From positions 62,001 through 126,000 of the forward strand of contig JAHDPL010000007.1 of the NCBI GenBank assembly GCA_018434355.1: a DNA stretch of 64,000 nt, written 5' to 3'. The DNA comes from Sporomusaceae bacterium. GTDB lineage: Bacteria > Bacillota > Negativicutes > UBA1444. Positions 58,062 to 58,432 of the stretch are shown one piece after another. A program made the position numbers and the translations under genes. Numbering within the stretch: position 1 is the first letter of the stretch; the number at the start of each line of letters is the position of its first letter. The notes below the pieces were generated by a model. It was not told the DNA's origin. It saw only the letters and a program-made list of their open reading frames with translations, and made no database searches.

Positions 58062-58364
58062 TCAGACCAGTTTCCAGCCTTCGATCGTCAGGCTTTTCAT
58101 CCAGAGGAACCGCCACAGCGAAATGCTGAAATTGCCTGGAATGTATAATGATTTTGGCAGATAGACATTAATTGTATCGACGACAACATGGTTGTACCTG
58201 TCCAGGTCAGCTTCCGGTGGTTTGCCCAGTCGCACGGACGGGCCTACGTTGACTTTGCATCAACCGATCATCGAGTTGCGGGTTTCAACCAATTGGACCG
58301 AGTCGGAATGTTCGGCGATATATTGTTGCGCTGCCGGAGTAATCGTGATTTCAAGTTTTGCCAT
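58062..58364 (-). CDS. Selenoprotein candidate with in-frame UGA next to Cys (Sec-Cys motif)
   Basis: On the minus strand an ATG (58364) behind a perfect AAGGAGGTG opens MAKLEITITPAAQQYIAEH and reaches an in-frame UGA at codon 35 (58260-58262), followed by a Cys codon (MIG-U-C-KVNVGP). The frame continues for 64 more codons in sensible protein sequence and stops at UGA 58062-58064, 100 residues in all with Sec. A hairpin lies 16 bases after the UGA. The layout resembles a family I recall annotated as CC/Se motif (seleno)proteins. The function is unknown; redox is a guess from the U-C pair. The alternative is a nonsense-mutated gene. Its stop lies six bases from that of the convergent REC-STAS gene. 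Confidence 0.75.
58224..58243 (-). promoter_or_regulatory. Candidate bacterial SECIS hairpin
   Basis: Read on the minus strand, GCCCGTC pairs with GAC(T)GGGC around loop CGTGC: a 7-bp stem with one bulged T on the 3' side and GU in the loop. It starts 16 bases after the in-frame UGA, within the usual range for SelB-binding hairpins. The known E. coli SECIS bulges its U on the 5' side, so the geometry is not identical. Confidence 0.5.
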
Positions 58365-58403
58365 TGCAATGCACCTCCTTGTGGCGAAACATTCTTGATT
58401 ACT

Positions 58404-58432
58404 ATTGTACCTTAGATTTTATCCGGAAACAA
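58404..58432 (-). promoter_or_regulatory. Promoter for the selenoprotein candidate
   Basis: On the minus strand TTGTTT (58427-58432) and TACAAT (58404-58409) are 17 bases apart, 40 bases before the ATG. Confidence 0.55.

Follow-up and report, generated by a model that had tools for sequence, protein, structure and literature searches.

Can an interval that ordinary gene calling leaves empty encode a selenoprotein, and what would such a protein do? The question was raised by a minus-strand frame in the stretch of 64,000 nucleotides analysed here (the window; contig JAHDPL010000007.1 of a Sporomusaceae bacterium). The original prediction proposed a Shine-Dalgarno sequence, an ATG, a UGA at codon 35 followed directly by a Cys codon, and 64 further sense codons; all of these elements are in place (Table 1). 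Its claim that ordinary ORF calling misses the gene also holds.

Table 1. Features of the candidate selenoprotein gene and its upstream region (window coordinates)
Feature	Position	Strand	Description and basis
Probable CC/Se motif family selenoprotein gene	58062..58364	(-)	100 codons, Sec = codon 35, final UGA = stop; NF041239, 68.8 bits
UGA probably read as selenocysteine, codon 35	58260..58262	(-)	Aligned with the sole Cys column kept in 37/37 family members
Cys36, TGC	58257..58259	(-)	Directly 3' of Sec; sole Cys of the product
Probable bSECIS hairpin	58224..58243	(-)	Fold, codon conservation, covariation; encodes the PSVRLG block
Shine-Dalgarno sequence AAGGAGG	58374..58380	(-)	9 nt 5' of the ATG at 58364; from sequence
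Promoter-like TTGTTT-N17-TACAAT	58404..58432	(-)	Putative; by eye from sequence

A UGA-containing gene and its family

The frame 3' of Cys36 stays open for 64 more sense codons and closes with a UGA at 58064-58062. Sec35 and Cys36 are adjacent and represent the only residues of their kind in the protein. The gene is solitary, with a convergent response regulator on one side and a divergent gene on the other. A functional link with these neighbours was considered and rejected, since genes in such orientations form no operon with it. The Rfam search at the locus returned nothing relevant; an AdoCbl-II match at E 2.8, outside the gene, is a chance hit.

We found that the read-through product matches one NCBIfam model, NF041239 ("CC/Se motif family (seleno)protein"), at 68.8 bits over positions 2-91 of 91, i.e., above the curated cut-off of 40 bits. 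The Cys-Cys/Sec motif family named in the original prediction thus exists; a 2026 review counts it with the predicted selenoproteins and gives it, for Moorella thermoacetica, as a hypothetical protein (PMC13188914). Around 97 family copies were detected in 36 of 100 sampled relatives of the same class, with Cys or UGA at the Sec column, as had been anticipated for homologues at position 35, and roughly half of them contain one in-frame TGA. On the phylum scale, the family occurs in 74 of 299 genomes, mostly with one TGA, and an alignment of 37 diverse members shows the Sec/Cys column to be invariant. The window gene is the sole UGA-bearing family copy in its genome. A DNA-pattern search recovered four loci in genome contigs and none in viral contigs, thus giving no sign of phage carriage. 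At the other extreme of copy number, one genome (G086) encodes at least 10 CC/Se copies (L046, L060, L061, L064-L066, L070, L084, L101, L102), and the family may dominate its selenoproteome. In seven genomes of the phylum sample (G143, G176, G212, G245, G319, G342, G365) there are matches to the family that carry two TGA codons in frame and are possible two-Sec members.

The simplest alternative is that the codon-35 UGA is a real stop ending a 34-codon peptide, with the downstream similarity being the decayed tail of a pseudogene; ordinary gene callers would indeed end the gene at this codon. The comparison with the same-genus orthologue (L113/L047), which is 63% identical and carries a UGA at the same codon, argues strongly against it. 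In both same-genus genomes 65 codons of open frame follow the UGA. Over these codons dN/dS between the two genes equals 0.16 at a dS of about 1.6, and identity is lowest at third codon positions (48%) and reaches 86% at second ones. Judged from this substitution pattern, the codons 3' of the UGA are under purifying selection, in line with the conservation expected of a translated frame by the original prediction, and the UGA itself is unchanged between two genes whose silent sites are close to saturation. The same in-frame UGA in about half of the homologues, the conserved SECIS codons described below and the full set of Sec genes in the genome likewise speak against a short peptide, which we regard as extremely improbable. 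A second Sec at the terminal UGA was also considered and rejected: the same-genus orthologue has TAA at that place, hence the last UGA of the window gene is a true stop.

The four genes that Sec insertion calls for, selA, selB, selC and selD, had been named in advance as something to look for in the same genome, and all were found. The selA gene (533 bits) adjoins selB, whose product scores 355 bits, over the cut-off; a tRNA-Sec with a UCA anticodon (selC) is encoded, and selD has an in-frame UGA of its own in the UxxK context, which is listed for SelD selenoproteins (PMC13188914). Among relatives with the family, 15 of the 17 that have Sec copies encode SelB, vs 3 of the 19 with Cys copies only (Fisher p 3e-5). 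SelB was missing at the strict threshold from G073 and G090, both of which have Sec copies, possibly due to their draft assemblies.

Taken together, homology, the full Sec machinery, the UGA placed over a conserved Cys, purifying selection on the codons that follow it and conservation of the hairpin at the RNA level make it nearly certain, as far as sequence can tell, that the overlooked gene is a genuine selenoprotein gene. Chance is excluded by the homology, the purifying selection and the codon conservation across relatives. A gene skipped by standard callers is thereby confirmed. The CC/Se family, as well as this type of recoding and of SECIS, is already known, and the window gene adds a member.

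The hairpin downstream of the UGA

The 7-bp hairpin with a bulged U and GU in its loop that had been described 16 nt after the UGA is present. It reads GCCCGUC-CGUGC-GAC-U-GGGC, with the U bulged on the 3' side and the loop CGUGC. Its 5-nt loop, 7 bp with a bulge, spacing of 23 nt and core energy of -8.6 kcal/mol, obtained on folding as the prediction had suggested, fall within the published bSECIS limits for loop size, G in the loop, spacing (16-37 nt) and energy. The TGA-plus-hairpin pattern occurs once in the window genome. The stability of the hairpin is unremarkable, both against shuffles (z -0.55) and against synonymous recodings (p 0.29), and single-gene stability was dropped as a sole SECIS test because it is uninformative.

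More informative are the codons of the PSVRLG block that the hairpin encodes. In Sec copies Ser is TCC in 42 of 43 cases, Val is GTG in 42 of 45 and Arg is CGA or AGA in 35 of 40, while Cys copies use mixed codons for the same block; the Sec copies sharing these codons come from deeply different subfamilies. In other classes the loop region of the corresponding stretch (e.g., CCTGCCGTGTATGTAGG) again contains CCGTG. Position 3 of the Pro codon and position 1 of the Leu/Trp/Arg codon pair as GC, AU or GU, even across differing amino acids. Across 31 distinct Sec hairpins 98.4% of cells are paired, and the covariation score (0.157 vs 0.100 +/- 0.012) was reached in 0 of 500 shuffles, with all slid controls scoring lower. 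As related sequences can exceed shuffles without any structure, we place most weight on the contrast between Sec and Cys copies: 89% of cells are paired and 21 of 46 hairpins are complete in the former, compared with 54% and 0 of 43 in the latter. The in-gene hairpin is therefore most likely, on these sequence comparisons, a bSECIS directing UGA to selenocysteine. The keeping of hairpin codons in Sec copies and their loss in Cys copies constitutes a natural experiment, in which an RNA signal can be seen as able to shape a protein motif. This near-invariance of hairpin codons, restricted to Sec copies, goes beyond what the first reading of the locus had noticed.

Several subgroups depart from the main pattern. 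Five loci (L088, L097, L099, L106, L110) form a subgroup that adjoins acetyl-CoA acetyltransferase/CoA-transferase-like genes; after the UGA its Sec copies have another hairpin (GTAAC...GTTAC), a departure recorded for L097, L099 and L106. The VUSGG subgroup (L060, L063, L066, L067, L077, L078) has about 18 extra nt between the UGA and the SECIS, which can form a stem of their own (GCGGG...CCCGC) and perhaps keep the effective UGA-SECIS spacing. Two Cys copies, L061 and L084, retain most SECIS codons (CCG TCC GTA CGG and CCG TCC ATG CGA, respectively), looking like recent Sec-to-Cys switches.

In the proposed mechanism, SelB with Sec-tRNA-Sec would bind the hairpin 16 nt after the UGA, and UGA 35 would be decoded as Sec; this step is an established bacterial mechanism, which we infer for this organism. 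At the terminal UGA, which has no such hairpin, translation would stop. The product would be a 100-residue single-domain protein with a predicted IscA/SufA-like fold.

Predicted fold and the order of Sec and Cys

The read-through product matches Pfam Fe-S_biosyn (PF01521) at 14.5 bits, below the gathering score of 26.3, and is not assigned to this family. Aligned by hhalign with an IscA/HesB set that took in clostridial HesB-like selenoproteins, the CC/Se profile reached a probability of 97.4% (E 1.4e-11) over its full length; the reversed and column-shuffled control profiles gave 2% and 0.3%, respectively. An AlphaFold2 (AF2) model built from four sequences (pLDDT 78.7, pTM 0.71) is weakest at about residues 30-32, beside the Sec loop. 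With this model, the top eight Foldseek hits are all SufA, IscA or Fe-S biosynthesis entries (E 8.8e-4 to SufA), and structure comparison gave Z scores of 9.5 to IscA and 9.0 to SufA. Searching PDB sequences with the family profile yielded no genuine match. The profile comparison and the predicted fold thus point to the CC/Se family as a distant relative of the A-type Fe-S carriers, a kinship that the first reading of the locus did not foresee. Sec35 aligns with the first cluster-ligand Cys of these carriers, but the set of three ligand cysteines is not present: the window protein and its clade have Sec35 alone and lack the C-terminal CGC. Some paralogues (L062, L083, L086, L087, L101) have CGxCxxC or CC at the C-terminus, recalling the A-type C-terminal ligands.

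The order of Sec and Cys, a further point beyond the first reading, distinguishes the window protein from most of its close relatives, which have Cys-Sec-Gly. The Sec column corresponds to the second Cys of Cys-Cys members; in the window protein Sec at this second position is kept, the first Cys is replaced by Gly and a Cys follows. The resulting Gly-Sec-Cys is shared with the same-genus orthologue and L048. These three form one clade (support 100/99) with Sec only, spanning two taxonomic families. The same motif also appears elsewhere in the tree (L107/L108), and several other members over the NF041239 cut-off likewise have neither a Cys-Cys nor a Cys-Sec pair. On the tree, built on 101 columns, the Sec/Cys label changes about 17 times, with at least 7 changes forced by well-supported branches.

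Candidate roles and comparison with known systems

All operon evidence stems from paralogues. Close ones with a CUG motif (L026, L027, L032/L111, L044, L045, L059, L070) end [NiFe]-hydrogenase operons, following the genes for cytochrome b and the HupD protease, both over their cut-offs. Two radical SAM genes directly precede the L112 copy, NirJ2 (over cut-off) and an AhbC-like one that scored below its cut-off. The VUSGG subgroup has ArsR regulators as neighbours, together with a SaoE-like permease whose score did not reach the cut-off. No family copy is linked to the uptake hydrogenase operon of the window genome; that the window gene serves this hydrogenase in trans is speculation.

Based on the fold and the paralogue neighbourhoods, handling of a metal, a metallocofactor or sulfur is the best inference: the Sec-Cys pair would bind or transfer a thiophilic metal, a metalloid or a sulfur/selenium species for metalloenzyme maturation. 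We consider this metal- or metallocofactor-handling role, drawn from the model and the sequences, to have somewhat under an even chance of being right. Its main rival is a thiol/selenol oxidoreductase with no metal role, in which Sec35 and Cys36 would run a selenenylsulfide cycle, as thioredoxin reductase does with its C-terminal Cys-Sec pair. In its favour are the adjacency of the two residues, with no others of their kind in the protein, and the many selenoproteins that have thiol-oxidoreductase homologues or contain redox motifs (PMC13188914). Yet the neighbouring Cys is not a family-wide trait, as many copies have a lone Sec or Cys (GUGGP, VUSGG), the predicted fold is that of metal or cluster carriers rather than of thioredoxin, and the paralogues lie by hydrogenase, NirJ and ArsR genes. 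Purely redox function is thus rather unlikely. Of the small redox protein read as Gly-Sec-Cys that was originally envisaged, the motif stands and the redox role stays conjectural.

A true [Fe-S] A-type carrier, delivering clusters in the manner of IscA and ErpA, has the homology and the predicted fold in its favour. Escherichia coli hydrogenase small subunits need both of these A-type carriers (PMC3283652). No PF01521 proteins were found in 21 Negativicutes genomes, i.e., the window genome and 20 relatives, where a substitute would be useful, and some paralogues (L083, L086, L087) have C-terminal Cys clusters, e.g., CGxCxxC. Against it stands the lack of the C-terminal CGC ligands in the window protein and its clade. 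Cluster delivery is accordingly less probable still than a redox function, and the window protein probably falls outside the classical [Fe-S] carriers.

Joining the handling of metals with the findings on the hairpin gives a wider, tentative reading, which we hold less firmly than the metal role itself. The CC/Se family would be a selenium-dependent branch of the A-type superfamily whose task, in bacteria without classical IscA/SufA, is the handling of metallocofactors or metal(loid)s. PSVRLG, the most conserved protein block of Sec copies, would be set largely by the SECIS hairpin, not by protein function, and would decay after a change of Sec to Cys, and the window clade would have shifted its partner Cys from before to after Sec. 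For a catalogued family listed as a hypothetical protein (PMC13188914) this provides a functional lead.

Three known systems come closest to the window protein. IscA, SufA and ErpA (PF01521) resemble it in profile homology, predicted fold and the aligned first ligand; it differs in having Sec for Cys, no C-terminal CGC and a sub-cut-off Pfam score. The HesB-like selenoprotein family TIGR01911 belongs to the same superfamily by profile comparison and has Sec at the same position, and its GUGGP motif is shared by some CC/Se paralogues, e.g., L101. It is nevertheless a separate family, which does not match the window protein and, as searched, has no match in the window genome or 39 other Negativicutes genomes. 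With NF041239 the window protein shares a full-length match over the cut-off and Sec at the same column; what sets it apart is Gly-Sec-Cys in place of Cys-Sec-Gly or Cys-Cys, and a gene that stands on its own.
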